A stretch of 64,000 nt of DNA from Sipunculus nudus (Eukaryota; Annelida; Sipuncula; Golfingiida; Sipunculidae), in the NCBI GenBank assembly GCA_026874595.1, contig CM049316.1, positions 56,677,676-56,741,675 on the forward strand, written 5' to 3'. Below are positions 928-47,560 of this stretch, in pieces. Every line of letters begins with the position of its first letter. Positions within the stretch are counted from its first letter, which is position 1. Position numbers and translations under genes: made by a program. Under the pieces are notes generated by a model, which saw only the letters and a program-made list of their open reading frames with translations, did not search any database and had not been told where the DNA came from.

Positions 928-10445
<9,518 letters not shown>

Positions 10446-25400: not shown

Positions 25401-28400
25401 AATTTAATCAAAATTAGATGAATATACACACACACACACATATCTATCTATCTATTCTTTTTTATATTTTAATAACTGTTGTTTTTTACAAATAGATTCT
25501 ACAGGAACCACTCTGCATTGAGATATGTATTTCATATGATTGAATCATACAGATACTATATATTTTGGTTTATTATCCTTTAATCTGCAATCAAAAGTCA
25601 ATTGTAAGTTACAGAATTCTGTAATGTGTATTGAAATATTTCAGTGTTGTCAAAAATACACAAGAGGTTTGTAGTTCTGTGCTGAGGCTTTAAGTAATGT
25701 ATTTCAGGTCCTTACCTGATTGTCATCACAAAAAAGGTTAAAGTTGGGGAGATCAATGGACACAGTATATGGAAGATTGCTGGAACAGAGTCAGTTTCAT
25801 ATAAGAAAACACTATTGCACATGAATGAACAACAGGTACATTGTCATATAAATTTGTAGTATTTGATAAAAAAAGTTCTTAATTGTAAATTGTTAAGCTT
25901 AATGAATAAGAATTTTTTCAGTAATAACTTATAAGTGTGCCACCTGTCTATTGTTAATAAGTATCTTACCAACAAATTTAGCTGAAATTAGTAACAATCG
26001 CATCAGCTGTAAGATATATTTGCCAGCTAGCTTGCAGTAACACATGATAAAGAAACCAATCAGTTAACATTGAATTTTAAAAAGATGTTTGATGAATATT
26101 CATAAGCACAGGCATATATGCGCACTTTTAATATGTAAAATGACCAATAATAAAAGAGTAATGGAATTTTTAAATTTCTAAAATTTCACATTTATAGATA
26201 TGAAGTCAACATAAAACATAATTTTGACATTTAATTTACTGTGTCATGTCATTTTGCAGTTAAAAATTTTATGGAATTTATGTTTTCTATTACATATTCA
26301 ATTTTTGTTGCTTTTTGCAGTCACAGGACAATGCACGGTACTTGAGTATGGTAGAACACCTCTCCTCTGTGGAGAGTTTTTATTTTTCATACTCCTATGA
26401 CTTGAGCCATACCCTGCAACGTCTTAACAACACTAGTCCAGAGTTCCTTGTTATGCCATTACATGAGAGGGTAAGTAAATTATGGAAATGAGGTTAATAC
26501 AACTTTTGTATACTTGTACAGTTTGTATTTAGCGTTGACCATTTATGTAAAAAACTCGGGGAATGCTATCATGCACCGTAACGTTTGAATGCCAGGCATT
26601 TTAAGTGTTAATCATCTTTCTAACTTTTATTAAAAAGCCAAAAAAGATAATTATAAATATCTTAGGATCTTCAAATGGTGTTGGGAGGCTGCATTTTATT
26701 TACTTACTGAAAATATTAGAGAATATTATTTCCCAGTGACAATCAGTGATGAAATATGAATTTTTTTCTGAGAGATAGGTTACCACATAACACTGAAAGG
26801 CAATTAAAACATTTGATGCCGGGATTGGGGTGGGGGAGGAGGGTTTAAGTGCCCATGTGCTCTGTTGCTTAGCGATTGTTCTTGCATCTTTGGCAACAAA
26901 GTGGTCTCCTGCAGGGATATCTACATTGTTTGTAAGAAACTGTCATATGCTTAAGTTGAAAATTTGTTACTCATAAGTCTATAGCCAAATGTTTAATTTA
27001 CATTGTGGCATAATCAGTGAAGTTCCAGAAACGAACAAATGGTTCAGAAGGGCAGTCATTATAGGATCTGCGGGTCATATCAGCGGCATCTCTTTATGCC
27101 ATGGATTAACTAGTTTTATGGCCTGTCAGGCACATGGGGCACAGACCAGGCATGGACTTGTGATTCCAGTCCTATAAACTCCTAGCTTAAACTAATTTAA
27201 AAAAAAAAATCAGGTCAGCCCTTTTGTAAAAAATATCATATAAACTAAAAAATTCATTGTAGTTTGTCCACATTAAGTGGAATACAAAAGTACTGGCTTC
27301 TCAATAGTGGTTGCATGGTTGCAATGGTTTCCCTGAAATTTGACATGCTTGGTGACCATAGATATTCATATCTATTGTATAATTCTTTCAGTTTTATACA
27401 CTGTAACAACTATATTGTGAGCTTTCAGTTCATCAATCATATGTTTTACACTGAATCACATGTTGGAACTTTGCTTCACGCAGACATATCCAGTCTTCAT
27501 GCAATGTTTAAAGAATATAGAGTCATTCAGTCTTCAATATGTTGCCAACATTTGTGAAATTTGGCCATTTTGTGCTGATCAACTGAGTGTCACTTGTCAT
27601 CTTTGCAGGCAGACCAGCGATTTGTGTGGAACCTTCATTTGCTGCGTGAATTCACATCTCAACCAGAACTCGCCAACTTTTGCCTTCCCGTCATTCATGG
27701 ATGTATCCTTACATTTGCAGCATGCTCGTTTGACATTTATGCTGTTTTTAGAATGTATGCCTTTAGATTATAATGGAAAACACTATATGTACTACTTTAT
27801 GAGATATATTCAAGGTATATGCACAACCATCGCCAGGGTTGCCTGTGGTCGGGGGGAAAGTCAGGGAAATGATATAAATTATAATGTTTTAAAGGAAGGT
27901 GAAGAGTCAGGGAATGTCATTAAAAGTTATGGAAATGTGTGATTATAAGTGAAAGTCATGGAAAAGTTTGGGGTAACAGTAGCGAGTTATCAGGTTACAA
28001 AGGTTTGACATTCCTTGGTTTAAGGGTCACAATAAATTCATCTGTATATATTATTCATTGTCTTTCAGTTAAGGTTATAGTCTGTATACAGATTTAACTT
28101 TTGTTTTTAGTCAATTTTGTGTATTTGTGGTAGGTCCAGGTTGGCTGTAAAATGAGGTAGTGGAAGCCATATTCAGGTTTTATGTGTTAATTATCGTTGA
28201 AAACCAACTGAAAGTCTGTGAAATGTCAGGGTATTCTTTTTGGGTTTGCTCTTGGAAACCCTGATATCTCATTCATTTCTGAAGGCTTGTTTCAGAAGAG
28301 TGTGCCAATTCTAACACTTTTTTGAGGCTGATGCCAAAGATGTGCTTGAGATTTAAAGTTAAATATGGTGATGTCATCAGTGTCACTGTAGTTTGACAGA

Positions 28401-31400
28401 TTATTTTATTATTTTAAGTGTAAGTCATGTGATTTAAACATGCCCCAAAACCATGACTTCCATGTTACCATGATCCAGTAGAAGGTCGGAGGTCTCTGAC
28501 TATAAAAATTACTGCCCTTGATCCAAGGACATGAACAAGCGGACATGAACAAGCCGAGGAAAAATTGCACTGTAACTTGGCCTTGTAATGTAACTCGAGT
28601 GGTCCAGCTTCATGCTTTCTTAACAATTTTGATCATATAAAATGTAGGTAAAACAGCAACAGTCATGTTTTAATGACACATAAATTATCATGTTTTATTG
28701 ATATCAGACATGAACAATCATTAAAGTTTAAATTTAATGTGCAATGACAGAATGTATGAGAAATCCTTGGCTCTACTATTAGTCTTGAGTGTCAGATGAT
28801 TTTCATATCTGCAAAATACTAAAATACCAGAATAGCATGAAAAAGTTTAAACCTGATATTAACCCTAAAAAGTTACCCTCGACCTATGCGGGGTCCACTT
28901 ATATGCATATTTTTACGGTAGTTTAGGTCATAGGTCAAAGCCTCATTATAATGATGACTCTTAACTCCAGTCAGTCATCGCCATCACACAGTGCAATATC
29001 AAGGGTAGGTCGTTCAACTACATACTGTTGTCCCGGCGACAGACTTTCAGGGCGGGCACACGTTACTATATGCGTGGCCTTGACACAGAGGGATATGCAG
29101 CAAACTATGTTGAAACAGAACAGATCATCGAGTATGAAGGCAGCAGATCAGCATTTGTCCAGGTAAAGTTTTCTGTATACAGCTCTACCATCTGAAGGTG
29201 GGATATTACTTGTATCTAAAGCATCAGACTAGAAAAAAGCAAGCTCCACCCAGCCAGTGCATATGGTGGGTTTTTAATTATCAGTCTGCAAGCCCGGAAG
29301 TTTATGTAAGATTTAAAAATTTGTAATGTGGACACACTGGTGGCATTTCAGTTCTTACAATTGTGTTTGACATGTTTTCAGCTGAAGGCCATGTGTGTTG
29401 CTGAATTTCCCAATAACATCTCTCACTCCTGTATTTTAGAGGTTCTTTTATTAGGCAGTGTGTATTCCAAATAATATAGACATCAAATAGTTATGTCATA
29501 AACAGGATTTTTTTTGACTTGGCAAAATTTTGAAAAGAGACATGCTCTTGAATTTTTTTATTCAGTGCAGTTTGCATGCTATATATCCTAAATTTTTATG
29601 TCACAATGAGCCCTCATAATTTGCATATCTGATGAATCTATAAACACGTTCAATGCATCAAGTCTGACACATTGTAGAAATATAAGCTAATTTTATTAAG
29701 CTTATTTACTTGAGTTTGACTTCATAAATCTGTTTCTTTGTATTTGGGTATCTACAGACAGTACAACAGTTTTCTCAAATTTAAGGCTCTGTACAGATAA
29801 ATATAAAAGTAACCTGTGTGATATCCAGGTAATAATAGTATACAAACTTATTCAGGCTTGCTATCTTTTCAGACCCGTGGTTCCATCCCCATGTACTGGT
29901 CCCAACGACCAAACCTGAAGTACAAACCAGACCCAGTTATCAGCTCAACATTGGACCATGTAAGTGAATACCAGCATATACAAAGTCTTAAAAGTTAAAT
30001 CATTGTTTAAAAGAGTTTATTTTGTATGTATTGGTAGTCTCCATTTCTGTGATCATTTTAGTTAGACTCTCACCTGCTGTTATGGGTAGCCAGTCTTCTT
30101 ACTGTGTAATTTTTTACAAATCACTCAGTTTAGGCCTTTTATTTAAAAATTTTGACTTTTGGAATCAATGTTTGATTGCCAACTTGCTTGCCAAGTGTTC
30201 TCTCCCTCTTTCTCTGTCTCCAGTTTACAGAAGGGAAATTGCATTAACTGAACTTATTGAGCTAAATTCAGTTTTATTTTATGAAGTATATTCACTTGTG
30301 TTTTTGCAGATGAATGGCTTTCAGAGGCATGTAGACTCTCAAATCTATCTTTATGGGAAGCAAGTCTTTATCAATCTTGTAAGTACCTGACTTATTATTT
30401 ACATTTCTCTGTTACAATAACTACAGTAATATTGCTTAATGCAAGTCAGCTTGTAGCTACATATATCACATTGACATAATTTTTGCAGTTTTATTGTGCT
30501 ATTATGCAAGGTCAGAAACATAAACCCAGACAACATGGTATTTCACATAGAGATTTTCTCATTGAATCAGCCATAATATGTGTGAGGTAATATAAGCAAT
30601 ACTTGTGTACTATTCACAAAATTAAATAAAAGGGTATGTATAACCACCATACAATTAATTACTACTCAAAACTTATTTATTTATAATTAAGGTTGGTCTA
30701 TATCAAATTCATTGGGTAAACATAGCCAAACATTTGTATGGTTTCCTATATGTGGATCAGTGACAGTACTGTGGTGGGTTTAATTCTATTTGAACTGCCT
30801 TCCCTGCTAAGACCTCAGGTAAATGTCTGTAACACAAGGGTTCACCCTCTCCACCCAGGAGCCAATGGCTGCTGGCAAATGCAGTATGAATAATCACCCA
30901 GGCCTATCACAGCTGCTTTGGATGTTTACTCTTCACGAGGCTTAGAAAGGCTGCAAGAATTAGTGTTCCCAAAAGAACAGTAAGGCAAAATTAAAAATCA
31001 GATGATGCTGACATCTTCAGTGAAATTAGACTATAAATTAACCTTTACCTTTATCATATACTGGTACATTCTGAGGAGTAAGTCAACAGCAAACTGGTTA
31101 GTGAACACTGCTGACTTAAACTCTAATATTTTACAGCAATTACATAGTCTCACATCCACCAACACACTGTAGTAGCTCCAAAAATGGTAAAATTATCAGA
31201 CAGCAGCCCAAAAAAATGTTTTGATAGACATGGCTCCCAACTCAGCCTTGACAGTCAAAGAGTAAAACATTTGGCTCTCTCTGCTGGCAGTCCGGGTTCG
31301 ATCCCCGGAGGCACCATGAGAGTGGGTTGTAGTAAACCGTCCAAGGTCGGTGGTATCCTCCGATTTCCTCCACCTTTAAAGACTACTGAACTCCACCACC

Positions 31401-34400
31401 CCAGCCATGGAGAGTGCCACCTATTAGTTATTATAACTAGTTTTACAACTCATGTAAATTAAATTAAGTTTATAAAAAAAAAATATAACCAACTTCCAGT
31501 AGTCCTGCATAATTGTTCCTGGACTTGTTGTAAGTGTTAAATGTTCTTTTTGCTCTCTGTTTCTAGTGAGAGTAGTTGAAGGCTTTATATGAGGCAGAAA
31601 GATCTACAAAAATATGGATATGGGATAGAATGTAGCTATAGGGTAAGAGATGGTTGGGGTGAGGGACATGCTTAGGGAGATAATAACATAACAGCCAGTG
31701 TACACATCAACCAAATTAAAGGACAAGTAACAGCAAAGATGTATTGTTGTGTTCCTGCAGCTGCCTCCTCAAACAACAATCCTGTCCACTGCAATATTTT
31801 AAAGCCATAAATGTTCCACAAATTGCATACAGGAAAGAAAGCAAAATGACAGCATGTTTAACTGTTTACTGACATTACCTGTTTCATTCAAATGCTGATT
31901 TCACCTTAAGTGTAAGATTTTAAACAGTGCTTTATAAAATGGGATTATAACTTTGTTATCTATGCAGTTATTGGCAGTCTTGCAGTGGATGTATCATGTT
32001 GCTTCTTTAATGTTTCTAACTGTTTAAACCATGATCTTTCAGATTGACCACAAGGGCCAGGAAGATGCTTTAGAAAAGGCATTTGCCCAGACTGTGAAAA
32101 ATTCACAGAACACTTACATCAGGTGAGTCAGTGTGAATAAAAGCAGAGCTCAACATTAACATTTGTCCAATCACCCATAGCTAATTACCAGTATTCTTTT
32201 GTGAGGATGAGCTTTCCTTGTATCAAAACTTGTTTAAACTAGTTGAAAAGCTTTAAACAAAAATGCTCAGGATCTGATTACTGTAGTTATACTATAAGTT
32301 ATTAAAAAAAAACAGTAATGGGATTTTCCAGGATTTAGTTTGCATATTCAGTGACTAGAAATAAGAAATTCTAATGAATGCCTGCCTCCACCATGTGGGA
32401 GGGAGGGTCTCTGATGTGGGATGCTCCCCCAACCCATGTTCGCATTCACTTAATAAGCCCATATCGAGTGATTCGATCTTGCATAAGTGATGGTACATTT
32501 TTCAGTATTCCTCGATTTTCCTGAATCCAGATCATGAACCAGATCCACACAAAATTTAATAAATTCTTCATCGGGCCATTCCCAGAATCCTCTAAAAATT
32601 TCATGAGATTCTGTTCATAATTGCATGAGTAATGTTGTGAACAAACACAGATACACAAAAAATACACACACATGAATGGGGGTTAATGCATACCCTCCTG
32701 CAGGAGACTATAAGCGTGTGGATTCACCAAACAAGGAATGGGATACATTGACTGATAGAATTAACCCAAACTTTGATAGAACCCATGTTTAAAAATGACA
32801 TTTATAAATAAATATTACAGATGTCTAAGGGATTAGTTTACCGTCTTACCCTGCAAATAATCCGCATTTTTTTGTCATTAAATCTAAACTAATATCCTTG
32901 GTGCATATTATACTTAGAGGTATAATTTTCCAACTATTTTCTGGTGCATTGAACCAGTCTGGTGCATTGGTAGGCGGTGAGACTGCCAAAATATCAGCTG
33001 GTGTTGAGCAATAATTTTGGAATTTAAAAGAAATGATAAGTATTGGTTAAATTGATCTTATATAGGAATGGGATACATTGACTGCTGAAATTAATCCAAA
33101 TTTTAATGGAACTCATGTTTAAAAATAAATATTACAGGTGTTTTAGGGATTAGTTTACAGCAAACATTTTGTGTCTCTTAGTACAATAAATACTTGTGTG
33201 TTTGCAGGTATGAGGCATTTGACTTTCATAAAGAGTGCAGCAAGATGCGATGGCATCGCTTGTCGATTCTTCTTGACCGGGTAGCAGAGGATCAGAGAAG
33301 CTTTGGGTAACAGAGTCTTCATACATTTTCGCCTCTGTCTCTGTCGTCATCTTAACATGTGATTTGGCAAAGTGATGAAAAGAAATAAGAAAAGCTTCTG
33401 TTCCAAAATTATTTTATTATTTGGATAATTAGTGTAATTGCATCCTTTCATTTATTATCTCTCTTTGTATTTTATGTATGTGTATGCATGATTATAACTT
33501 TCCATGTGAACCAGTTTCCTTGAAAAATTGTCATAACAGGATTGACATATAAGATCATGCAAGTCATAGTCTGCGTATGGTAAAAAATAATCTCTGAAAA
33601 AAGGAGTACCAAGAAAAAGATTTAATATCATGAGGCTCTTATATAAAATAAGTCAATAACAATATTTATAACAAAATGGACATTAAAGATTGTGAGATAG
33701 ATAGTTTATTTAGTTTTTATCAGATCAAGGTACATCAAAGTAAACATGTTTTCGTTGCTTATAAAGAAATTGAACTTGGTGCTTCAGGTATTTTATGGCG
33801 GTGCGTGATGGGAAGGTGATATGCAACCAGGAAGGGGTTTTCCGTACAAACTGCATTGACTGTTTAGATCGGACAAATGTAGTGCAAAGTCTCTTGGCCA
33901 GAAGGAGTCTACAAGAACAGCTTATTGTAAGTAAACTTTATGTTATCCATGACCTCAGGAGTAAAGGAGTTCATTATGATAATGGATGCATTTTAATCAA
34001 TACTATAAATTTGGAAACATTTTGCATGAGTATTTTTTAATTTGATTGCTGCAACATGCATTATTTTGTGTTTATATTAAAATAAGCTGTGCATAACTGT
34101 ATGATGTTCATAACCCTAAATTTTACTCTAAAAAATTAAAAAATTTAATTAGCATTTGGTATGCTGCATAAATTTAAATGCATTTCCAGGGCACTTTGAG
34201 CTAAGACTTTATAAGAGTATAACGTCTTGCATGTGGTGTGTGTACTACATAAAAGATTCATTAGTAACCTGTAAAATAATATATATATGTAATCTATACC
34301 GTTGATAACCATACAGTATTTACTCAAGCGTTTACCATTTAGATTTATTTTAGATTTTTGACAAATTCTGATACAGCTTATGTACATTACAGGAAATATC

Positions 34401-37400
34401 TTGCTTAGCTGTATTAACAAAATGTTTTGGAGTTACCACAAAGGGGATTTGCTTAAGGTTAAATGAAATCTTTAGAACTGAAAATATTATGCAATAAGTT
34501 TAACATCAGAACCTCCAGCCAAAGAAAAAAATCTACGTGCCAATCTTTAGTGGTCCTAAATGACCATCTGGACAGTTAAGGGTTAACATGAATTTAGTGG
34601 TAATTTAACATATATTAGTTCACTTGCTGTTATAAATTTGTTTTAGCCTTTTAAGTGTAATTCTTTGATAAAATTGACAGCTGCTGTGATCAAGAGCTAT
34701 AGCATTTGCTTATTTATGTCTTTTCAGCGACTTGGAGTTCTAATGCCAGGAGAGAAGGTTGAAGAGCAAGTGGAATTTGAGTTCATGTTTAAAAATGGTG
34801 AGTCAGTATGGTCACATTCCGCTTTCATCATTCAAGCATCCTGTCAAGCAGATAATCTGCAAGTTTTGTCTGATTTAAATGAGGATTAGAAATTTATTCG
34901 AGTGGTCAGTCATTTTTAAAGAGAATGCTGATGCATATGGTTTGTCATGATTAAGCCTTTTGTATATCATGACTATTGAGAATATTCAAATTTTCATTGC
35001 AACAACTGTAAGGCCTAACTTTTGTTCCACATGTCATATTGTTTGAAAAAAAGTAGCAATACAATTGTTATATATATGTACTTTTTTAATTAAAGCTATT
35101 GCTGAAATCATGACCACTATGTGCTTAAATATATGTTTTGTTCCAGTGCATTATTATGATAACTTGTTATGTCATCATATGATATCTTTAATATATTGTT
35201 TTCTTTTCACCAGTGTGGGCAGATAATGCAGATGCATGTGCTAAACAGTATGCTGGCACAGGGGCTTTGAAAACAGATTTTACAAGGTAATGGTTAACTG
35301 TAGCATTTTTCAAATATGGTACATCTATGTGTAAGCTTATTTGAATATTATAGGTCATTTTGGTATGTAACAATTCTTGTTTAAAAATATCACATAAATG
35401 TATTTTCAGATCTGCAGATTCTGATTTATATATCAAACATTTTAAAATTGTTCCGTCTAATATGTATTACCACCATTGCACTTGAAAGAGGAATTATTGT
35501 TCCAACATTGAGTATGTGTAGACATAAATAATTCATTTTAACTATACATTTTATACATTTGCATAAAGTTTAGGGATTGTATATGAAGCATAAAATGCAC
35601 TGCCCCCGAACTCTTAAAAAACTATGTAAGGAGTGTGTTTGTTATTTTATATTTTTAATTCTTTTACTATTATGGTGTATGATTCAATATATGAAATGCT
35701 GAAAAGGTATGGCAGTTTTATAAGAACAACATTATTGCAAATATCAACATTTGAAACTTCACTCAGATGACTTTGCTTGTGGTTTGATCTACACATTCCC
35801 CTATTATAAAATTTTACATGATTAGTATGGATTATATAGAACTGAATATACATTTTTTACAGGACAGGAAAGCGTACAATCTGGGGATTGATCAAGGATG
35901 GCATTAACGCATCCTACAGATATTTAATGAACAATTTCTATGATGGATACCGGCAGGTGCAGTGATAGGTGCTGCCCTCTGGGCTTGCTTCAACATTAAT
36001 GTTGCTTGATCCTTGTTGATGCACTAAATCACATAATTTAAATTTATGTAAATCTGTGATATTTAGCAACAATGGTTTATTGTAACTTTATCTTACTGTC
36101 TGTCATGGAAGTGTAGAGGATATGTGTATGTAGCTATATGTGTATTTAAAATTAAGCAGAATATTTATACTTTGTACTTTGAAAATTCTGAGAAAGATAC
36201 ATAAGGACTTTGTCTCAAAATAAAAAAGCTCTTGTATTTTGGTCTTATCCAGTGTGCATTCATTTGAAAAATCTTTATTTGAAAAATACAAATATTATTT
36301 TTTTAAATGAAACAATCAAATATTAAAATGTAACTTGTGAATAGAAAATAAAAAATGAGGCAACATAGCAATTAGGAAATATACTTTCTGGAATGTATGT
36401 TTAATACAATTTAGTTAAAGGTGTAAAAAAATTAGATTTTGCTTGAACTAGAAAGAAAGATGAAAAAAGTTGGTATTTGTGAATTCATCTATCCTAAATG
36501 TAAATTTACAGCCAAACATTTTGGAAAGTAAATGCTTATAATAGTTTCTTTGGACCTTTGGACAGAGGATAGTAAAATGTATTTAAAACATGTTGTCATT
36601 ACTTTATGAATTTGTGCATCAAAAAGGACAAGATTTTTTTAAATAACTCTTGCTTTTGTTTTCAACACCATTTTTTGTTTTGCTCAGCTTAGCTGTTGCA
36701 AGCAAGCTAGGCAGACCACTATGCTGAAATTTGGCTGATTCATGCGTTTGTGAATTTTCTTTCTTTATGCTTGGGATAGAAGTTTCTGTTGGCTGGCATT
36801 ATAGCTCCCATGAAAATGACCAGTTTTGAGTGTTGTGACAAGTTTTACATTCTCAGACATTCAGATATGATATAGTTTGTGTGTGGTATAACCATGTTTC
36901 TAGAACTGACAGCTTGTTGTATAATTTTGTATTTATTTACTCTGGCTGTTCCTCAGAATCCTTAGATGCCCTTTTTTGCATGGCCATATATACCATGCCA
37001 CCATGAGATGATGTACCAGGCCTCTCAGCTACCTCATGCATAAGATTTATCTACATCTGCCTGGCATCACCCCCAATTTTTCAAATCAGTAAGGCAGTAC
37101 CGCCTAGAAAAAATTTGCTAATATGTCTATTTTACCAGCATGACTAGAAGTCAGGATGGGGCCTGCAAACACAAATTAATTACAAGTGTTTTCCTTTAAG
37201 TATATACCCAAATGGGCACAGTTAAACTTTTTCAATTGCAGAGTACCAGCCGATGAATTAGTCTAGTTCTAACTTGTTTCATTTAGAAGGCAACTCAGAT
37301 GTTACAGACTTTTTGTTTTATTTTTTTGTGGAGGTAACCGTCACAATTTTTAATGCTTGCCCAACTAAGTACTATGTACATCTGCAGAAATCCCATTCAG

Positions 37401-40400
37401 GTTTTGGACTATGTAACAGGGGCTTACAGTTACATGTGATAAATCTGGCACCAACCAGGCTTGGTGTATCACTTCTGTGGGTCCTGGGTGTGTGTTATCC
37501 CTAATGCTGGGTCATGAAAACACTGAGGAATCCCTGAAAGGCTGACTTGTTTGTGAATGAAAGATGACTGTTGGGCACAGTCTCTCCATTATGCATGCAG
37601 AGTGCTCGCACTGGATAGGGACTGACCATGAAAAATCTCACTGCCTCGGTTGAGGTTCAAACTCAGTCTCCCATTTTTGAGCCCTTTTGTCTACCCCCAG
37701 ATCAGGGAAGATCACTAGAAATCTGAGTTTTCTATTTAATTTAATTTTCTCATGTTCACACACTTTTTGTCTTTTCTTTATTTGCCACCTAAAGACACCA
37801 CCCTGTGGTTGTTAATGAATTCCCTTTCCAGTTTTCCAATTTTCCTATGTTGTATTTATTTAGAAAAGGAAAACGTACCAAATTTGGACTGTTAAAGGAT
37901 GGATACAACTCGGCCATCCGCTACTTCAAGAACAACTTCTATGATGGTTTTCGTCAGGTAACAAATGGAAAGACATTGTGTCTTTATGCCAGCATATTTT
38001 ATGTTTGCCTACTGTTTAATCTTAATGAATAATACTATATTTTCAGAATGTAACCTGAGTTATTAAAGCACAAATATTTTTGTAAAATGTCACAAAGGTC
38101 TGCACAATACGTTTTGTCACAGCCTGTAGAAATTCTTTAATATGCCTTCACCAAATTTTGTCAGTGCAGAAATATGCAGTAACATGAGCACCTGAGGCTT
38201 TTGCAGTCTTCTTTTTGCATCATTTGCGGTATGACATCAACATTAAGTTGCAATTTTTTATAAGTAACCTTGCCTGGTTTCACTGTTTGTTAAATGCTGC
38301 TTGGCTGGCCCTTGCTAGCAGAAAAATACAGTTACTTTTGGCATGCATATATTATGTGTTTGTGTGTATATTTACTCTTTCATTATGCTTTTCATTTGAA
38401 AAAGATGAAATATTTCTTTGTGATTTGCTTGCATTCTTTCATTTCTTTTTGGAAAAAATATGTTTAATTTGATTAACAGAGTAAGAGCTGTGTGAATCAC
38501 AAAAATACCAGAAAAAAAGGTGGAAATATATAATAACATGTACATGGAAAAATAGAAAATGTATTTTTCAGTTTTATTTTTCATCATACAGTTTTCATTT
38601 GCAGTTATATTCTGAAAGACACAGATATAGAAATGCAAAATTAGTAGATAATATTACACTAATGGGATTGATAATCGTGCAAGAATGAATAACATGGATA
38701 TATATAAAATGAATAAAGAGTAGCTGAACTTTATCAGTATGAACATTTGTCAATAACATAAACACTGGCTGCATTTTCTGTGTCCTTGTCATATATAAGT
38801 ATTTCTATTTTGCCATTTTTAGGACTCGATAGATCTTTTCCTTGGGAACTACATCGTGGAGGAGCAGGAAGGAATCAGCAAGTCATGTCCGCTTCGTGAG
38901 GAGCGAGACTGGAAATTCTATGCAGTGAGTATTCCCTTGAGTTACTCCAGTACCACAACCATTAATTAAGGACTATTCCTAGTCCTTCAACAGTGAGCAC
39001 ATGTTTTTTTTCAATTTAAACTTTTTTGTTATTTTTAATTAAAGTGGAACATTTAGCTTATCAGTGTACACAGACATTATTTTGACTCCTTGGATTATTT
39101 AATACTGGATTTGGTCAGCATGAGTTTAACTAAGGGCATTAATTTAAAAGTAGTTGTTCAAACAACACTGGAGAATGAAGTATGACTGAAATCTATTCAG
39201 TGGTTTTAAGTCTATGACAACTTGTGATTGAATTCATATTCAGTGTACAGTGTTTTTTTTTTTTGCTTTTCTGTGTTTTTTATTCAATGATCACTTTTAG
39301 TTGTGTCAGATAAACTGAAAACATATACAGTCAAGCCCACTTTGTGTCATATCAGTTAATAGAAAATCCTGTTTATTGACACATAAATCTAAAATCCCAT
39401 ACCATTTCCTATTTAAACAATGGTAAACCTGACCGTTTAATATCATGGAATATTGTCATAATCCCGTTTATTGTCACGCTTGGAACCCTTGACAGTGATG
39501 TAAGTTCGTTGTTAATATCACATCAAATGCCGAAGCGGCGATCAACAAGACCAAGAGCCTGTTATCTGTCAGGCGTAACAGACCATCACATCTCCCACCC
39601 GTGTGTGGCAGACAAGTGTGGTGATGCATGCGGGTCACTCCACATCACTTAGCTAATTAACGTCTTAAGATACCACTGTAATCTAGATCATTGTGTTTCT
39701 TCATACGACAACAAGGGCGACTTTTGCAATCACATGTCATACATAATGAACTTCTGGCCTTGGCAAGGCCGCGGTTAACACCTCGGTGACGTTTCGCAGA
39801 GATGATATGAAGCACGTGCTGTTAACGTTGCTTATGACTCGAAATCCCCTTTAAAGGTCCCTGAAAGGCTGGAGGTTATGTGAGCACTTGAGGAGATACC
39901 CCGTCCAAAACCTACATTGCCGCAAAACTTCAGAATGTTGACAACAGCTTGATGATGCCCTCTCCCCAAACAGTCCTATCTTAAAGACAGTCATGGAAGT
40001 TTGAGTCATTAATAAGACATCTGGAAAATAAGGCGCAATAGTCTGGAAAGAATATCAACAAAAATAGTTTCCCTTCGCATAATGTTATAAATGTGCTGCA
40101 TTATTCCCAACATTTGACCTCATGACCGAGACTATACATCTTCTTCTGTTGGCAAGTCGGTTATTGCGGCATGCTACACAAAACTTACAGGAAATAAGGT
40201 GTGCATAAACGTAATTTGATATGCCTTTGTGCAATAAAAATCTTCATAAACGTTTCAGGTTCCTTTTTATTAACAATTTATTTAATATAATTTAAGACAC
40301 AATGCTTCTACTATGACTCAAAAGAACATGTTGAAGCTGCATAATATCACATCCATGTCATTATCATAATTCAAGCAAGCACCACTGACATGACAATAAG

Positions 40401-42471
40401 CGAGCTTGACTGTACAGCAGAACCTGTCGTGAGGGGACACCTGTGGGATATCCCCAAAGTGTCCCTACATAGCAGGTGTCCCTTCATAAGAGGTTGGGAC
40501 AGTTGCAGGCAGGGATAATGATTACTGTTTGGAGATTCATTCAACAATTAAAACAAAAGAATCACATACCTATAAGCATATAAAATAAAATGATTTTATA
40601 TCAGTAATATATATAAAAAAATATTTAAATGGACATCTGACCAAAGAAAGCAGATTCTTTGATGTCATGATTAAAAGTCTTTAATGAGCTGGTCCATATA
40701 TAAATACAAATTAAATAAATGGTGAATCATGACTTTAATTTCATAGAAATTATTACTATTTGCTAAAAAAATTTAAAAACAAATTTTTATTCAATAAAAT
40801 AGGATATTTGTAATATTTCTTAATTACATATTGTTCTGAATAAATAAATAAATATGAATAAAAGTCATCCTACAAACCTCTTGTTTAGCCAAATTTATAT
40901 GATAGGAGAATGATTTTTAATAAAAGATAAGGGTGTCATTAGGATATAGTATTCATTTAAATTTTTAGTGAACAATTAAAGTTATGCAACATTCTTTCCA
41001 CAGCACTGAATAATAAATTTATGTCTGTCAAAAGAGTAAGGTCTCTGAATGTCCCTACAGTCCACGGGAAATTATTCAAATGCAGACACCTCTAATTCAG
41101 TATTGAAACAAAATCAATTTTCAACATCAGAATTTTATCCCAACATTGAAATTATGACCGATGCCTCCTATTCAGCAATGGTTTTGTCAGATTGACATTG
41201 AATTGACCCTGAATAGGCTACACATCAGGCGGACATTCAATATGGCAGAAATGCTGGGGTGATCAGGAGCGTTTGGTGGACTTTGGCAGCTGTCGACAGC
41301 CTGTGCTACTCACAATCAAATTTGAACAATGTACAGTGATTTTGTCAGCTGAAATCAATTCAAATAATCAACTTCAAACTCAATATTTGGACAAAAATTA
41401 TTTTCTAACATAAGAAATTTATCCTGACATTGAGATTATGACTGGATGGCTCAGATTTAGCAGTGATTTTGTAAGATTTATATTGCATTGACCGGGCCTC
41501 ATATGATGCGGACATTTAATATGGCTGAAACAATGGGATATTTGGGAGGGTCTGGGGGCATTCAGTTGCTGTCACCTGCTGGTGCACCCGCAATCATATT
41601 TGGATTATACCTGTTAATCAACATTTTGACATCTTTTGCAACAGTTAGAGTTAGAATCTTCAAATGCTATCATTATTATTTTTGCAGCTTTAGAATAGTG
41701 ACCAAAGTTTGCAAGCACAAAACATCTTGTCTGCCATGTTTATACGACAGAAAAAAACTTGGGTCAACCGATGTTGATGCCCATTGGTCGAGTCAGTCAT
41801 GTGTTACAAAATTCCCGTAATTATATGAGATCTATGAATAAATCTAAATAAATGCTGTTCACGGTGTGCATGAAGCGTTTCACAGGGCTGCTTAGCTGCT
41901 ACACTCTTGCAGCATATCTGGTGGCCGCTGATATATCGGACTCAGGTGTCCATTCATTACAGGATTTTTGGGCCAAACATAAGTGTCCCTGTCCGTGTTT
42001 AGCAGGTGTCCACTCATGACAGGTCAATTTCAATGGGAAACGGGTCTGCACAATGGCTTAGTGTCCTTACATTGAAGGTGTCTGCTCATTGGTGGGTCCT
42101 GCTGTGTATATATATATATATACACACATATATTCTTGTTTTAGCTTCTTGCCTCAAGGATATAGATTTGTAGTTTATTGTAAAACCTTTTACTCTTTTA
42201 GTTGCCTTGACCTGAAGTTACCTTAGGGATACTTATGTGTAATACTTGTTTTATTTTAGCTTCCTGTGATCTTCATGCTTGCCTTCTCCATGTGTGTCAT
42301 CAGTGTAGCCATCCCTGATGGTAGGTCTTTACAATTACTTTTATACATACACCACCTCACTTAGTATTATGGCTTAATGTAGAACATTCAGGCCTGCTAT
42401 AATTCAAGGTACATGTAAAGTTGGACAGTATACATCAAAGTAATATCACAATATATCACTGGATTCATTTG

Positions 42472-42529
<58 letters not shown>

Positions 42530-45500
42530 TTAATCTACATGTTTTCTGCAATCTATTAATATATATATTATTCATGATCTGAAAATATTAGCACAAGATA
42601 TGATCACTTTATGTGAGTCTCACATGTATCAATGTTCTTTTTGCACATTCCTGTCAATATTAAGAAATCAAATATTAATAAAAATCAAACACATTTCTTT
42701 GATTGCAATGCTTGTTTTCACCAGTACATGGTGACCCAATTTAAAAAGTGTTGTGACATTGTTTTTTCTGAGGCAGAGGTGTTAAATTTCCCCATCTCGA
42801 TATATTTTACACTTACCAGTGTTTTTAGCGAACCTGTGAGCTTATGCGATGGTGCGGCGTCGTCCGTCGTGCGTCGTCCATCGTCTGTATGTTTACCATA
42901 GCTATCTCAAAAACGGCAGGAGCTAGCATCGCCAAATTTTTTTGCAAATAATCAGTCATCCAAAAAACTGTATCGTATTTTGTTTTTTTTTTCTAACTGC
43001 ATTTTTATAGATTATATAGGGAAAAAGCTTAAAAAGCTTTAAAAATCTTCTTCTCTGAAACTGTCCAGTCAAATAGTCCAATATTTCACAGAAATGATCC
43101 CTGGAACAATCTTTCTCAAATTTGTTCAAATGGTTCCAGTTCGGAGATTTTTGGCCGAGTTACAGGAGGTTGAACTTTGTTAACTGTGCAAAAAAGCATA
43201 TTAAAATTTAAATCTCAGAAACGGCTGGAGCTATCATCACCAAATTTTATGCCAATGTTGGTCACATAGGTCATATCTGAAATTGAGGTATTGGTGGCGC
43301 CACCTGCATCGGCCTTTTTTGTACGGGGTCATCAGTGCCTGTATCACACTGAGGGCTACAAAAAACTTCTTCTCTGAAACCATATGGCCAAAATGTTTAA
43401 TATTGCACAGAAATGATCCTAGGGTAGTGCTTTCTCAAGTTTCTTCAAATGGTCTCTTTTCAGTGACTTTTGGCTAAGTTATGGGAAGCTGAATTTAGTC
43501 ATATGCCATAACAGCCCATTTTAGCTCAGTGGCTACAAAGATCTTCTTCTCAAAAACCACTTGGCCAAATTCTTAAATCTTACACATTAATTATCCTCAG
43601 ATGTTGATAATTCAAGTTTGTTCAAATGGTTTTGGTTCAGTGCTTTTTGGCTGAGTTACGGGAAGCTGAACTTAGCCAGTTTGCTGTATCTTCCTATATA
43701 AGTTATAAAACCTGTGAAACATTTTTCGACTGATGCCACTGAAGCCAGTTTGTTTAATATTTTACAAGAATAATCCCTACAATAATTCTTATAATAATTG
43801 TCATTAATGGTTCCACATGAATGATTTTTGGCTGAATTATGGAGATTGAATGGAGTCATTTTACCATATATGTTAGCTGTGTTATGCTGTTACATCTAGC
43901 CTGGCACCAGTTTATCAGCATCTATTACATCATGCCACTAGACATTTAGATTTCAGGTTATCTTTGGTTAATATTGACAAGAAAGTTTTTTTAAAAGCTT
44001 TTAAAAAATTTAGATTTATGATTTAAGTTATTCATCATACCAGGCAATCTTACAATCATGGATATTCAGTTCTCTGTGGCCAAAACTGTACATGGATTAT
44101 TAATTATTGGTATCCCTACTCAACTTAATTCAAGAATTTGCCATCAATGAGATATATCTGTATTTTAATTTTGCATTCAGTATGCGTCCGTAATAATTTT
44201 ACATATATTCCTGGTTTCTTTTTTTTTATAAAAAGTCAGCTGAAAAGCATTTTGTATTAGGAAAATAAATTTCAAAGTTATTTCAAGTGAGACCACTTCT
44301 GTGTACAGATGGCAGCACTTGGTTTACCATTGGTAGATTGTCAGTGCCTTGATGTTGGCTATTAGCCAAGATGATGTCAGCTCTATAAATAGTTTTGGCA
44401 TAGTGCCAGGATTGGAAGAAGTGCAGCCAGGTATAGGCCAAGAGTTCACTCAGTGCAGTAGCTGCATTCTATTTATAGCTTTGGCAGACTGCTCACTGCA
44501 TCATATTTGGCACCAAAGTTCAGCCTGAATCTATTAATAGCTTTGGCAGACTGCCAACTGTGTCAGATTATGCAACAGGTCAAGAGTTCACTCAGTGCAG
44601 CCAGGTACAGGTCAAAAGTTCACTCAGTCTAGCCAGGTGCAGGTCAAGAGTTCACTCAGTGCAGTAGCTTGAGGCAGCAATTTGTCACAGGTCACTCGGG
44701 GGGCAACTGCCTTACTCACCTAAGCCTTGTCAGCCCAGTGCATCAAACTCTGGAGAAGTTTGACCTGTCTATGCATCTTTGATGGTATTCTCATTTACAA
44801 GACAGGTGGTGCGACCTACATTAACTTTTGCAGTGTATGCGCCTGCTTATTTCTACAGAGGAATTTGATACATCAGCCTAAAATTGGGCATGTTTATACA
44901 TATCGGGTAGCTTTATAGTGTACAAGACTGGTGGCCCCACCTACAATAATTTTTGCACAGTGTATGTCCCTGCTTATTTCACAGGAGGGGTTTGACATAT
45001 CAGTCTGACATTGGGCATATTTATATATCTCTTCGTTGTATGTAAGACTGATGGTGCCAGCTACAATCATTGTATCTGCCAAAACAGAGTTCTGCGGATA
45101 CTATGTTTTCAGTCATACGCCGAGGCTGTCGCCATTGCCACATAGGTTTCTGGAGAACTCCTCCATAACCACTGGGCAGAATTTTTTAAAATTCGGAATT
45201 ATGATCAGTCACATGTGAACTGCTGCGCCCTCATTTTTGGTTGACCTCTGACCTTTCCATTCTGCCCAGGGTCCATTTGTGCATCTGTTTCCACACATAA
45301 ACCCACATATCTCGGGAACCATTAGACCAATCAGGCTAGAAATTTTGCACAAATGTAGCCCTTTGATAGCTTTATAACATACACTAAAAATGGTGGCGCC
45401 ACCTGATACCATTCTTGCACAGCGTCCACCTGTTCATCTGCCTTGCAATAAAATCACTCATATCTCAGCAGTGGTTTGACTTTTCCACCTGAAATTTTGC

Positions 45501-47329
45501 AGGTTTATACATCCTGGACAGCTCTCTTGATTTTATGACAGGTGGCGCCACATGCATTCAGGTTTACTCTGCAGACATCCAAGCTCATATCTCGGGAACC
45601 GTTTGACCGATTGGGCCAAAATGTTGCTTGTTAGATCTCACATAGCTCTTCATCATACGCAAAAGTGGTGGTGCCACCTGCAACCACTTATGCACAGCGT
45701 CCATCTGTTCATCTGCCTTGGGATAAAATCACTGATATCTCAGCAGTGGTTTGACTTATCCACCTGAAATTTTGCAGGTTTATACATCCTGGACTGCTTT
45801 CTAGATTTTATGCCAGGTGGCGCCACCTACATTCAAGTTTACTCTGCAGACATCCAAGCTCATATCTCGGGAACCATTTGAAAAATTGGGCCAAAATGTT
45901 GCTTGTTAGATCTCACATAGCTCTTCATCATACGCAAAAGTGGTGGGGCCACCTGTAACCATTTATACACAGCGTCCATCTGTTCATCTGCCTTGGGATA
46001 AAATCACGCATATCTCAGCAGTGGTTTGACTTTTCCACCTGAAATTTTGCATGTTTTATACATCCTGGATAGCTCTCTTGATTTTTTGACAGGTGGCGCC
46101 ACCTACATTCAGGTTTACTCTGCAGACGTCCAAGCTCATATCTCGGGAACCTTTTTACCGATTGGACCAAAATTTTGCATGTGTATAGATCTCACATAGC
46201 TCTTCATCATAAGCAAAAGTGATGGCGCCACCTGCAACCATTTATACACAGCGTCCAGCTGTTCATCTGCCTTGGGATAAAATCACTCATATCTCAGCAG
46301 TGGTTTGACTTTGCCACCTAAAATTTTGCAGGTTTATACATCCTGGACAGCTCTCTTGATTTTATGACAGGTGGTGCCACCTGCATTCATGTTTACTCTG
46401 CAGACATCCAAGCTTATATCTCGGGAACCGTTTGACCGATTGGGCCAAAATTTTACATGTGTATAGATCTCACATAGCTCTTCATCATAGGCAAAACTGG
46501 TGGTGTCACCTGCATCCACTTATGCACAGAGACCATCTGATCATCTGCCTTGGGATAAAATCACTCATACCTCAGAAGTGGTTTGACTTATCCACCTGAA
46601 ATTTTGCAGGTTTATACATCCTGGACAGCTTTCTCGATTTTATGACAGTTGGCACCACCTACATTCACGTTTACTCTGCAGACATCCAAGCTCATATCTC
46701 GGGAACCGTTTGACCAATTGGGCCAAAATTTTGCTTGTGTATAGATCACACATGCTCTTCATCATAGGCAAAACTGGTGGCGCCACCTGCAACCACTTAT
46801 GCACAGCGTCCTTCTATTCATCTGCCTTGGGATAAAATCACTCATATCTCAGCAGTGGTTTGACTTCTCCACCTCAAATTTTGCAGGTTTATACATCATG
46901 GACAATTTCCTCGATTTTATGACAGGTGGCACCACCTACATTCACGTTTACACTGCAGACATCCATGCTAATATGCAACACACCTCACTCTATTCCCCTT
47001 GCCACTTAATCCATGCCTCACTTCACCTGTCCTACTCTGATTTCTGCGAATACACATATTCGCTTGTCGACTACCCATATTCTAGTTTTAAAATGTCCTA
47101 GTCTGAAACTTGCAGCTCAGAAATGTCCATTTTGCTTTAATAATAATGACTAAGGTAGATATGCAGGACTTAAGAGGATCACTATTAAATTTTAAAAATA
47201 AACCTCCATTGATACTCCCAAACTTTGCACTGGTTCGCATTAGGCTTGTAGGCCTTGTTTAACATGACAGTGAACACAAACATCAAAGGTCACCATATTT
47301 AAGTAATTGCAGTTTAGTACATTAAAGTC

Positions 47330-47392
<63 letters not shown>

Positions 47393-47560
47393 TCTTATAT
47401 AAACTTCTTATAAAACTGTTTTACAGAGAATCCAAGTGAGCAGATGATGTATGTATTGTTCTGGGGCGGAGCAAGCATGGTGACCCTAGGGGTCATTTAC
47501 TATTATGGGATGGAGTTCGTTGACAAACCCAAACTAGCCCAGAAGATAAAAACCGATTAA
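19384..47560 (+). CDS. SACM1L: phosphatidylinositol-3-phosphatase/4-phosphatase SAC1, complete, with duplicated exon 15
   Basis: Eighteen exon positions join in frame: 19384-19412, 24515-24612, 25206-25283, 25708-25835, 26321-26470, 27609-27702, 28975-29162, 29873-29959, 30310-30378, 32043-32122, 33208-33306, 33788-33926, 34728-34797, 35214-35286, one of 35863-35956 or 37864-37957, 38823-38924, 42260-42320, 47427-47560. The sum is 1773 nt, 590 residues, close to the human protein (587). Sac1 is the ER/Golgi integral-membrane phosphatase that removes mainly PI4P. Seen here: the Sac N-domain, the CX5R catalytic motif [10 protein letters not shown] with Cys389, two hydrophobic segments (527-544, about 552-573) and a C-terminal KIKTD (KxKxx COPI retrieval signal). 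All introns are GT-AG. The start context is ACCATGG. Confidence 0.97.
19993..21925. mobile_element. 1.93-kb TIR DNA transposon without transposase
   Basis: The first 37 bp (19993-20029, starting TATAGTCCGTTCCACCAA) are matched in inverted orientation at 21889-21925 with two mismatches. No transposase ORF was recognised inside. A G12 run at 21380 and GC-rich patches (19830-19860) are internal. The TA next to each end suggests a TA or TATA target; the class is uncertain. Confidence 0.8.
21938..22479. mobile_element. 542-bp TIR element, relative of its neighbour
   Basis: About 40-bp TIRs: 21938-21977 (TATAGTCCGTTTCATCCC...) against the inverted 22440-22479, 35 of 40 matching. The outer bases TATAGTCC are shared with the element ending 13 bp upstream, but the inner TIR differs (GTCCACCTGTTTTTTGC). 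Confidence 0.8.
24515..24612 (+). CDS. SACM1L: SACM1L exon 2
   Basis: Residues 10-42: [20 protein letters not shown], then [12 protein letters not shown]. It corresponds to the N-terminal HxTPEKFYVE...IDR segment of Sac1. Acceptor gattgtag, donor AAG|GTATGTAG. Confidence 0.94.
25206..25283 (+). CDS. SACM1L: SACM1L exon 3
   Basis: Residues 43-68: [20 protein letters not shown], then IVRILA. The GILGxxxLxxG strand is conserved across Sac domains. Acceptor ttttttcag, donor CAG|GTAATAT, leaving one base of a Gly codon. Confidence 0.95.
25708..25835 (+). CDS. SACM1L: SACM1L exon 4
   Basis: Residues 69-111: [20 protein letters not shown], then [14 protein letters not shown]. The [12 protein letters not shown] motif is diagnostic of Sac-domain phosphatases. 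Ends in phase 0 at CAG|GTACATT. Confidence 0.97.
26321..26470 (+). CDS. SACM1L: SACM1L exon 5
   Basis: Fifty codons, residues 112-161, including [20 protein letters not shown], the conserved FYFSxxYDLTxTLQR signature. Acceptor ctttttgcag, donor AGG|GTAAGTA, phase 0 at both ends. Confidence 0.97.
27609..27702 (+). CDS. SACM1L: SACM1L exon 6
   Basis: Residues 162-192: [15 protein letters not shown], then FCLPVIHG. RFVWNxHLL is conserved in Sac1. One base (T) is carried into exon 7 to make Phe. The donor T|GTATCC is weaker than its neighbours. Confidence 0.95.
27834..28263. mobile_element. hAT-like MITE (tentative)
   Basis: Starts CAGGGTTGCC and ends GGAAACCCTG, near-inverted 10-bp ends of the hAT type. 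The interior repeats agtcagggaa and agtcatggaaaa. No convincing 8-bp target duplication was found, so the class is tentative. Lies in SACM1L intron 6. Confidence 0.45.
28975..29162 (+). CDS. SACM1L: SACM1L exon 7
   Basis: Residues 193-255: [20 protein letters not shown], then [20 protein letters not shown], then [12 protein letters not shown]. The RAGTRYxxRGxDxxGxxANxVETEQ block is the most conserved part of the Sac domain. The acceptor is the second AG of ccagtcag, fixed by frame. Phase 0 at the end. Confidence 0.97.
29873..29959 (+). CDS. SACM1L: SACM1L exon 8
   Basis: Twenty-nine codons, residues 256-284: [20 protein letters not shown], then PVISSTLDH. RGSIPxxWSQ is a family hallmark. Donor CAT|GTAAGTG. 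Confidence 0.97.
30310..30378 (+). CDS. SACM1L: SACM1L exon 9
   Basis: Twenty-three codons, residues 285-307: [20 protein letters not shown], then INL. Matches the FxRHFDxQxxxYGKQxxxNL segment of Sac1. Phase 0 at both ends. Confidence 0.96.
31233..31470 (+). repeat. tRNA-derived SINE
   Basis: Contains a B-box GGTTCGATCCC (31295-31305) within a perfect T-arm stem (CCGGG/CCCGG, 31292-31308), followed by a body with tcggtggtatcctccg and gactactgaactccaccac and an A/T-rich end. The A-box side is diverged. A headless relative lies at 7140-7270. Lies in SACM1L intron 9. Confidence 0.75.
32043..32122 (+). CDS. SACM1L: SACM1L exon 10
   Basis: Residues 308-333: [20 protein letters not shown], then SQNTYI. 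It is the more variable segment before the FDFHKEC motif. The donor AG|GTGAGTC splits an Arg codon. Confidence 0.93.
32450..32710 (-). repeat. dispersed repeat, partner of 55230-55440
   Basis: Read on the minus strand it contains tgcaattatgaacagaatct and gtggatctggttcatgatct, which align with tgcacaatcatgaacaaaat and gtggatcctgtacataatct at 55300-55390 on the plus strand. About 230 bp of diverged similarity. Function unknown. Lies in SACM1L intron 10. Confidence 0.6.
33208..33306 (+). CDS. SACM1L: SACM1L exon 11
   Basis: Residues 334-366: [20 protein letters not shown], then [12 protein letters not shown]. The FDFHKECxxMRW motif precedes the catalytic loop. Acceptor tgtttgcag, donor GG|GTAACAG with two bases carried over. 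Confidence 0.97.
33788..33926 (+). CDS. SACM1L: SACM1L exon 12 (catalytic loop)
   Basis: Residues 367-413. Carries [20 protein letters not shown]; the nucleophile of the CX5R(T/S) motif is Cys389 by this exon count, the same position as in human and yeast-type Sac1 alignments. It continues [13 protein letters not shown]. Ends in phase 0 at ATT|GTAAGTA. Confidence 0.98.
34728..34797 (+). CDS. SACM1L: SACM1L exon 13
   Basis: Residues 414-436: [20 protein letters not shown], then FKN. Matches the LGVL...E..FE..FKN segment. The donor G|GTGAGTC splits a Val codon completed by exon 14. Confidence 0.95.
35214..35286 (+). CDS. SACM1L: SACM1L exon 14
   Basis: Residues 437-460: [20 protein letters not shown], then TDFT. 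The WADNAD/[19 protein letters not shown] motif is nearly invariant in Sac1. The donor AG|GTAATGG leaves two bases that both versions of exon 15 can complete to Arg. Confidence 0.97.
35863..35956 (+). CDS. SACM1L: SACM1L exon 15a (alternative version)
   Basis: A 94-bp exon, residues 461-492: [20 protein letters not shown], then [12 protein letters not shown]. Strong acceptor (cattttttacag), weak donor CAG|GTGCAG. It is homologous to exon 15b (21 of 32 residues identical by eye), with the same length and phases. Read through the donor, the frame continues Val-Gln and stops at TGA 35963-35965; an AATAAA lies at 36219. It may therefore be a mutually exclusive internal exon or a terminal exon. 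Confidence 0.9.
35957..37863 (+). other. spacer between exons 15a and 15b
   Basis: A 1.9-kb AT-rich interval. It has AATAAA hexamers at 36219-36224 and near 36350. Around 37550-37700 there is repeat-like sequence with gaggttcaaactcagtctcc, insufficient to call a SINE. No third copy of exon 15 was found on the plus strand. Confidence 0.6.
36219..36224 (+). promoter_or_regulatory. candidate polyadenylation hexamer for an exon 15a-terminated transcript
   Basis: AATAAA 254 bp after the TGA that follows exon 15a. Such hexamers are common by chance in AT-rich sequence, so this counts only together with the read-through stop. Confidence 0.3.
37864..37957 (+). CDS. SACM1L: SACM1L exon 15b (alternative version)
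   Basis: A 94-bp exon, residues 461-492: [20 protein letters not shown], then [12 protein letters not shown]. Acceptor gtatttatttag, donor CAG|GTAACAA. It looks slightly closer than 15a to the vertebrate Sac1 sequence as I recall it (DGWNSMIRYYKNNF-type). Entry phase 2 and exit phase 0, identical to 15a. Confidence 0.93.
38823..38924 (+). CDS. SACM1L: SACM1L exon 16
   Basis: Thirty-four codons, residues 493-526: [20 protein letters not shown], then [24 protein letters not shown] closes the Sac domain and DWKFYA leads into the first membrane segment. Phase 0 at both ends. Confidence 0.97.
39328..40412. mobile_element. pogo/Tigger-like non-autonomous Tc1/mariner element
   Basis: Flanked by TA on both sides (39326-39327, 40413-40414). 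Ends are inverted: left CAGTCAAGCCCACTTTGTGT, right (reverse complement) CAGTCAAGCTCGCTTATTGT; with the flanking TA included, 26 of 31 bases match. The CTCGCTTATTG form is reminiscent of Tigger termini. The 1085-bp interior has no recognised transposase. Lies in SACM1L intron 16. Confidence 0.75.
40415..42104. mobile_element. 1.69-kb TIR element with TGTA target duplication
   Basis: Begins CAGCAGAACCTGTCGTGAGG and ends with an imperfect inverted copy (…gggtcctgctg). TGTA occurs immediately outside both ends (40411-40414, 42105-42108). The interior repeats gtgtccctac and aggtgtcc phrases. No transposase ORF. It begins two bases after the previous element, so one probably inserted at the other's edge. 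Confidence 0.65.
42260..42320 (+). CDS. SACM1L: SACM1L exon 17 (first membrane segment)
   Basis: Residues 527-546: [20 protein letters not shown], an 18-residue hydrophobic run that is the first transmembrane helix. Acceptor tttattttag, donor G|GTAGGTC, with one base carried into exon 18. Confidence 0.95.
42473..42531. repeat. (TA)n microsatellite
   Basis: About 28 uninterrupted TA units in SACM1L intron 17. Confidence 0.95.
42822..43900 (+). repeat. dispersed element B with tandem core units
   Basis: The head 42822-42867 (tttttagcgaacctgtgagc...cgtccgt) recurs inverted at 60956-61001. It is followed by units starting cttcttctctgaaac (43048, 43364) and cttcttctcaaaaac (43541) and a ggccgagttacagg / ggctgagttacggg phrase (43152, 43651). 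One exact GGTGGCGCCACC palindrome lies at 43293-43304. Lies in SACM1L intron 17. Confidence 0.65.
44420..44668 (+). repeat. short direct repeats of caggtcaagagttcactcag
   Basis: The phrase (caggtca/aggcca)agagttcactcagtgcag occurs at about 44435, 44577, 44610 and 44641, spaced about 32 bp in the last three. Between the first and second lies a duplicated tatagctttggcagactgc (44475, 44535). Low-complexity, no coding signal. Confidence 0.7.
44720..45065 (+). repeat. diverged ~122-bp palindrome-led repeats
   Basis: Three units each start with a degenerate GGTGGnnCnACCTACA (44805, 44930, 45051) and continue with cagtgtatg...cctgcttattt(c). They immediately precede the main 278-bp array and appear to be an older version of its half-unit. 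Confidence 0.6.
45066..47085 (+). mobile_element. Helitron-like non-autonomous element C1 with 278-bp dimeric tandem core
   Basis: The left part 45070-45390 matches (inverted) 54550-54870. The core 45392-46936 is a tandem array whose GGTGGCGCCACC palindromes lie at alternating spacings of 149 and 126-129 bp (45392, 45541, 45667, 45816, 45942, 46092, 46221, 46370, 46499, 46648, 46776, 46925). The right end 46950-47085 matches (inverted) 53397-53530 and finishes with a GCGAATA-CACA-TATTCGC hairpin (47046-47063) and CTAG followed by T, as in Helitron 3' ends. No Rep/helicase gene. Lies in SACM1L intron 17. Confidence 0.75.
47334..47390. repeat. (TA)n microsatellite next to the last SACM1L acceptor
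   Basis: About 28 TA units ending 36 bp before the AG of exon 18, leaving only cttcttatataaacttctta and a short pyrimidine stretch between them. Confidence 0.95.
47427..47560 (+). CDS. SACM1L: SACM1L exon 18 (second membrane segment, C-terminus)
   Basis: Residues 547-590 then TAA: ENPSEQ, the hydrophobic [20 protein letters not shown], then [18 protein letters not shown]. The C-terminal KIKTD is a KxKxx COPI-type ER retrieval signal, as in vertebrate Sac1. Confidence 0.97.

Follow-up and report, generated by a model that had tools for sequence, protein, structure and literature searches.

Does the Sac1 (SACM1L) gene of the sipunculan worm Sipunculus nudus encode a single enzyme, or two enzymes that differ in one short segment? 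The question is raised by a 64,000-nucleotide (nt) stretch of the forward strand of contig CM049316.1 (assembly GCA_026874595.1, positions 56,677,676 to 56,741,675), referred to here as the window, whose own numbering is used throughout. Within the window, the Sac1 gene contains two neighboring 94-nt exons, 15a and 15b, that encode alternative versions of the same stretch of protein. The reading favored here, with a probability of about 80 percent, is that 15a and 15b arose by an old tandem duplication and that a transcript takes up one or the other. Both exons are taken as functional because each bears signs of sequence constraint, and as mutually exclusive because only single inclusion leaves the full-length frame open. 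The pair and its immediate partners are as follows.

35214..35286, + strand: exon 14, ending ...TDFT-AG (phase 2), the common upstream partner; from splice sites and joined exons
35863..35956, + strand: exon 15a, 94 nt, entered in phase 2 and left in phase 0; acceptor tatacattttttacag, donor CAG/gtgcag
35957..37863, + strand: intron between 15a and 15b, 1907 nt, long for steric exclusion
37864..37957, + strand: exon 15b, 94 nt, entered in phase 2 and left in phase 0; acceptor tgttgtatttatttag, donor CAG/gtaaca
38823..38924, + strand: exon 16, the common downstream partner; from splice sites and joined exons

The two exons have the anatomy of tandem duplicates: they are adjacent, homologous, equal in length and alike in phase, and their splice sites are intact, with AG before and GT after each. 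The initial annotation had placed them at exactly these coordinates and had both entering in phase 2 and leaving in phase 0, which is correct. The last two bases of exon 14 are AG, and the first base of either exon completes them to AGG or AGA, both arginine codons. Counting this arginine, 21 of 32 residues are identical, as had been counted by eye; the figure for whole codons is 20 of 31. With either exon on its own between them, exons 14 and 16 stay in one reading frame, and exons 2-18 joined with 15a alone or with 15b alone each give an open frame of 580 residues. Inclusion of both exons shifts the frame and reaches a TGA after 26 codons of 15b, and exon 14 joined straight to exon 16 reads Arg-Thr-Arg-TAG. 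Both outcomes had been predicted and were recovered by computation in the joined exons.

Two exon junctions remain past the stop in each aberrant form, at 115 and 176 nt in the double form and at 92 and 153 nt in the skipped form. Nonsense-mediated decay acts on mRNAs whose stop codon lies well upstream of later exon junctions. Given that the later junctions lie at least 92 nt past the stop, decay is predicted for both double and skipped mRNAs. The earlier claim that splicing must choose one exon is thus strongly supported as far as frame enforcement and constraint are concerned, and exclusivity itself is a prediction from the genome. Apart from the frame rule, the DNA itself displays no enforcement of exclusion.

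The early stops could also mean that the pair mainly regulates the amount of Sac1, with the double or skipped transcript acting as a poison product whose decay reduces the Sac1 level, and with no difference in function between the two proteins. Both combinations do stop early with two junctions at least 92 nt downstream, as this explanation needs. However, the proteins differ at 11 of 31 residues and by three units of net charge, and both versions are strongly constrained as protein, which a mere poison exon would not need. Regulation of amount is improbable as the main role of the pair, and is compatible with one-at-a-time splicing rather than exclusive of it.

The evidence for constraint comes from the way the two exons differ. 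At the DNA level, 64 of 94 bases are identical, and the differences fall at 16 of 32 third codon positions versus 14 of 62 first and second positions. This likeness is mainly at the codon level, and the pair is absent from the output of a DNA repeat finder. By the Nei-Gojobori method (NG86), the proportion of synonymous differences (pS) is 0.70, corresponding to a saturated dS of approximately 2, and the proportion of nonsynonymous differences (pN) is 0.215. A maximum-likelihood codon model gave a soft estimate of omega of approximately 0.07, with twice the log-likelihood difference (2dlnL) being 18.3 against omega = 1. The sequence around the exons is not alike: ungapped 100-nt flanks show identities of 30 and 32 percent, close to the level of unrelated AT-rich DNA, and ungapped 30-nt flanks are 37 and 20 percent identical. 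Chance likeness, allele doubling in the assembly and recent duplication were rejected on the saturated synonymous sites and the dissimilar flanks. A second Sac1 gene or a retrocopy was likewise rejected as the source. In searches that covered the whole 1.43-Gb assembly, on one contig of which the window lies, the 15b peptide (E up to 10) gave at least two matches, 15b and 15a, and these two places alone among the matches listed; 15a DNA found itself alone among the matches listed.

Both exons have kept most of the sites that yeast and human Sac1 share. Every human comparison used a provisional SAC1 sequence. Of the 31 sites, 19 have the same residue in yeast Sac1 and human SAC1, and 15a and 15b each retain 16 of these 19. 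The W/F and L/F losses are common to the two exons, position for position; T1 is lost in 15b only and S16 in 15a only. The equal retention indicates that neither exon decays faster. Identity to human is 20 of 31 for 15a and 22 of 31 for 15b, and identity to yeast is 16 and 17 of 31, respectively. The distance between 15a and 15b is therefore about equal to the distance of each from human, a comparison made over a segment too short to date the duplication and in which accelerated change following the duplication would look like greater age.

These data bear on the possibility that 15a, hardly or never used, has decayed or is decaying, and that 15b is the sole working exon. The donor of 15a, with 5/9 matches to the U1 consensus, and its slightly lower identity to human (20/31 compared to 22/31) fit such a fate, and a copy whose constraint ended lately is compatible with the data. 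Yet 15a has kept 20 of 31 residues while synonymous change has saturated, and it holds as many of the old conserved sites as 15b. Neutral drift was simulated with 200,000 trials per level, in which success meant that the splice sites were kept, no stop arose and at least 20 identities remained. Indels, which would speed decay, were left out of the simulation, and the reference divergence was half the NG86 dS, approximately 1.0 substitution per site. Drift from 15b at 0.3, 0.5, 0.8, 1.0, 1.5 and 2.0 substitutions per site succeeded in 2287, 6, 0, 0, 0 and 0 of 200,000 trials, and drift from 15a in 2042, 3, 0, 0, 0 and 0. The lack of any success at 1.0 per site, together with a 2dlnL of 18.3, indicates that the likeness exceeds chance. 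A dead 15a is very unlikely, and on these comparisons both exons are judged to be under strong purifying selection on the protein.

A further explanation makes 15a an alternative last exon, whose donor is skipped so that translation stops two codons on and yields a soluble, anchorless Sac1. Indeed, when the 15a donor is left unspliced, a TGA follows after two codons with a TAG next to it, and the intron contains AATAAA at 36219 and 36347 and ATTAAA at 36322. However, base composition predicts approximately 1.8 AATAAA for this intron, and the exact 94-nt length, phase and GT donor have been kept, none of which a last exon needs. The product would also lack the membrane anchor, a point that is indecisive since human Sac1 without its anchor works when recruited artificially (PMC5829913). 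A terminal role for 15a is about as doubtful as its decay, and the paired, one-at-a-time reading is retained below.

The gene that carries the pair is, by its sequence, a Sac1/SACM1L phosphoinositide phosphatase with a Sac domain, a CX5R loop and juxtamembrane and anchor regions, and it looks intact in the window. The gene and the exon that carries its catalytic loop are as follows.

24515..47560, + strand: Sac1 (SACM1L) gene, exons 2-18; from comparison with human SAC1 and inspection of splice sites
33788..33926, + strand: exon 12, carrying the catalytic CX5R loop; from alignment to yeast Sac1 and joined exons

Exon 1 was not located, and the assembled model consists of exons 2-18. The 15b form is identical to human SAC1 at 356 of 576 aligned residues. 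The Pfam domain Syja_N (Sac homology) matches residues 49-335 of the 580-residue model (E 1.9e-86), and the catalytic CX5R loop is present where it aligns to yeast Sac1. The C-terminal 163 residues align with residues 437-586 of yeast Sac1 (E 2.5e-29), whereas Fig4 aligns only over 540-609 (E 9.7e-4). By alignment, exon 14 matches yeast Sac1 from about residue 437 onward, and the C-terminal part continues through the yeast transmembrane region, which predicts a transmembrane anchor in a model that ends KIKTD. The assembly has 12 Sac-domain matches in all, and those outside this gene lie on contigs C14, C6 and C1. Within the gene, intron 6 (27703-28974) has the donor gtatcctta and, shortly before its acceptor, tcttaac. 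By an unscored comparison with the U12 consensus, it looks like a minor (U12-type) intron.

The location of the segment suggests what a switch between 15a and 15b might do. By alignment the exon 15 segment corresponds to yeast Sac1 464-496 and to human 461-492. It had been described as closing the Sac catalytic domain next to the membrane. The domain part of that description is to be corrected: the segment lies beyond both the Pfam Sac match and the CX5R loop, and is placed by alignment within the stretch of approximately 70 residues that precedes the first transmembrane helix. This juxtamembrane stretch of Sac1 is reported to be needed for catalysis (PMC5829913). In yeast Sac1, the region is reported to gain structure on membrane contact, including an amphipathic helix (PMC10550967). 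Activation of Sac1 by anionic phospholipids is cited in PMC6563779. The 31 residues carry a net charge of +3 in 15a and +6 in 15b; for the 32-residue segment, 15a, yeast and human all stand at +4 and 15b at +7. Across the 18-residue core, hydrophobicity averages 0.17 for 15a, -0.09 for 15b, 0.08 for human and -0.15 for yeast, with hydrophobic moments of 0.49, 0.44, 0.46 and 0.37, respectively. 15a contains a tryptophan. The hydrophobicity of 15b is within the family range, so charge alone sets 15b apart. Because the charge difference falls in the membrane-contacting juxtamembrane region, membrane docking or lipid preference would be the likeliest effect of the switch, and an effect on partner choice is possible.

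The choice between the exons would be set by splicing regulators. Steric exclusion and a U2/U12 clash were rejected as the means, given the 1907-nt intron and the ordinary GT-AG sites around both exons, whose AG exclusion zones are 21 and 30 nt. Candidate pairing between introns was scored against shuffled sequence. Complementarity between intron 14 and the 15b-16 intron reached 36.0, above 100 of 100 shuffles (maximum 35.5); for the other two intron pairs, 56 and 30 of 100 shuffles scored as high. The complementary stretches lie near 35668 in intron 14 and near 38510 after 15b, and their pairing would loop out both exons. TGCATG occurs twice between 15a and 15b and 15 times in the gene (24515-47560), where 4.6 are expected by composition. 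RBFOX sites were rejected as a specific regulator since this gene-wide enrichment is not specific to the pair. Among the donors, that of 15b matches the U1 consensus at 7/9 positions, and the predicted donor duplex energies are -8.0 for 15b and -6.8 for 15a, 1.2 kcal apart. There is only a lean toward 15b as the default exon.

Several observations weigh against the reading of a functional, mutually exclusive pair with distinct docking segments. Use of either exon, and their exclusivity, are predictions from genomic sequence. The maximum-likelihood kappa is implausibly low (0.15), which makes the value of omega soft. The match of the 15a donor, gtgcag, to U1 is limited to 5/9 positions, although the donors of exons 6, 11 and 16 do no better, with 4 or 5. 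Its duplex is stronger than 8 of the gene's other 16 donors, and this mid-range energy weakens the idea of 15b by default. No docking or selector pairing stands out, as one of three intron pairs is marginally above shuffles and two are not. The core of yeast Sac1, which has one version of the segment, is as little hydrophobic as that of 15b (-0.15 versus -0.09), and the amphipathic helix was placed in exon 15 by inference.

If the pair is used as proposed, the frame would enforce exclusivity at least, in that double or skipped mRNAs would stop early, decay and lose the membrane anchor. The two juxtamembrane versions would then differ in how they dock the catalytic head on the bilayer. The 15b version (+6, less hydrophobic core) may favor membranes rich in acidic lipid, and the 15a version (+3, tryptophan) may lean on hydrophobic insertion, such that the switch would tune phosphatidylinositol 4-phosphate (PI4P) turnover by tissue or compartment. 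Residue counts would make the duplication about as old as the split from vertebrates. This fuller proposal, of two Sac1 enzymes that differ in the docking segment only, arose by an old duplication and are exchanged to set the membrane or geometry of PI4P removal, is tentative and considerably less secure than one-at-a-time splicing. Sac1 removes PI4P in the endoplasmic reticulum, driving lipid exchange at membrane contacts, and the reach of its head to substrate is debated (PMC5829913). A switch between two enzymes would provide a natural setting in which to test the cis/trans question for Sac1. Natural isoforms that differ only between head and anchor would allow the role of the segment to be tested without artificial linkers.

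Either-or exon systems are known as a kind, and such a system in Sac1 appears to be undescribed. U2AF1 has an exon pair, Ab/3, that is frame-enforced too. Human SACM1L presumably has one version of the segment. Yeast Sac1 (PDB 3LWT, 4TU3, 8C81) and human SACM1L belong to the same family as the gene described here and have its catalytic loop, its juxtamembrane segment and its C-terminal part in common with it, whereas yeast has a single version of the segment (464-496). Substitutions of tandem duplicated exons are usually ancient, and one such calcium-channel exon pair is reported to be conserved across protostomes, including molluscs (PMC9741552). The Sac1 pair resembles the exons of that human survey in being adjacent and homologous, with conservative changes and one homologous region swapped; it differs in that the gene encodes a lipid phosphatase and that exclusivity is read here from the DNA. 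The main text of the survey names neither SACM1L nor Sac1. Decay of double-inclusion mRNA is a contributing mechanism of mutual exclusion, for which FGFR2 is cited (PMC6071210), and the choice between U2AF1 exons Ab and 3 is governed by branch point and pyrimidine tract (PMC5224494). The Sac1 exons are either-or exons like FGFR2 IIIb/IIIc and U2AF1 Ab/3, but no shared regulatory element was identified in the Sac1 pair, and lengths and genes differ. As in Dscam, the choice would be mutually exclusive within a tandem exon array; unlike Dscam, with its docking site and selectors, there are two exons only and no convincing competing pairing was found. In the open literature, annotation databases not included, the matches listed gave no description of mutually exclusive or alternative exons in Sac1 or SACM1L; one of them, a study of recursive splicing (PMC6224609), mentions SACM1L a single time. 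No Sac1 title was among the matches listed for mutually exclusive exons in molluscs or lophotrochozoans. The suggestion in the initial annotation that the pair is undescribed agrees with this literature, and it is quite possible that a Sac1 exon pair is annotated elsewhere and undiscussed.

Across the window, Rfam and tRNA scans found nothing. Long-period tandem arrays are present at 2667-3939 (339 nt), 45378-46974 (278 nt) and 53645-54569 (272 nt), and the second of these sits in intron 17 of the Sac1 gene. The printed units of the three arrays share a GGTGGCGCCACC-like core, which is GGTGGCTCCACC in the third. Some contigs of the assembly appear to be bacterial. On contig C123 (112 kb; L020, L021), the 20 kb inspected by eye contain frames like those of nucleoside catabolism, a cbb3-type oxidase and a metal-transporting ATPase. 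There are 11 COX1-family matches, of which nine lie on other contigs (L012-L019, C60-C89) at 418.8-420.4 bits over 577-578 aa. These nine may be bacterial too, and the bacterial contigs are perhaps from associates of the animal.

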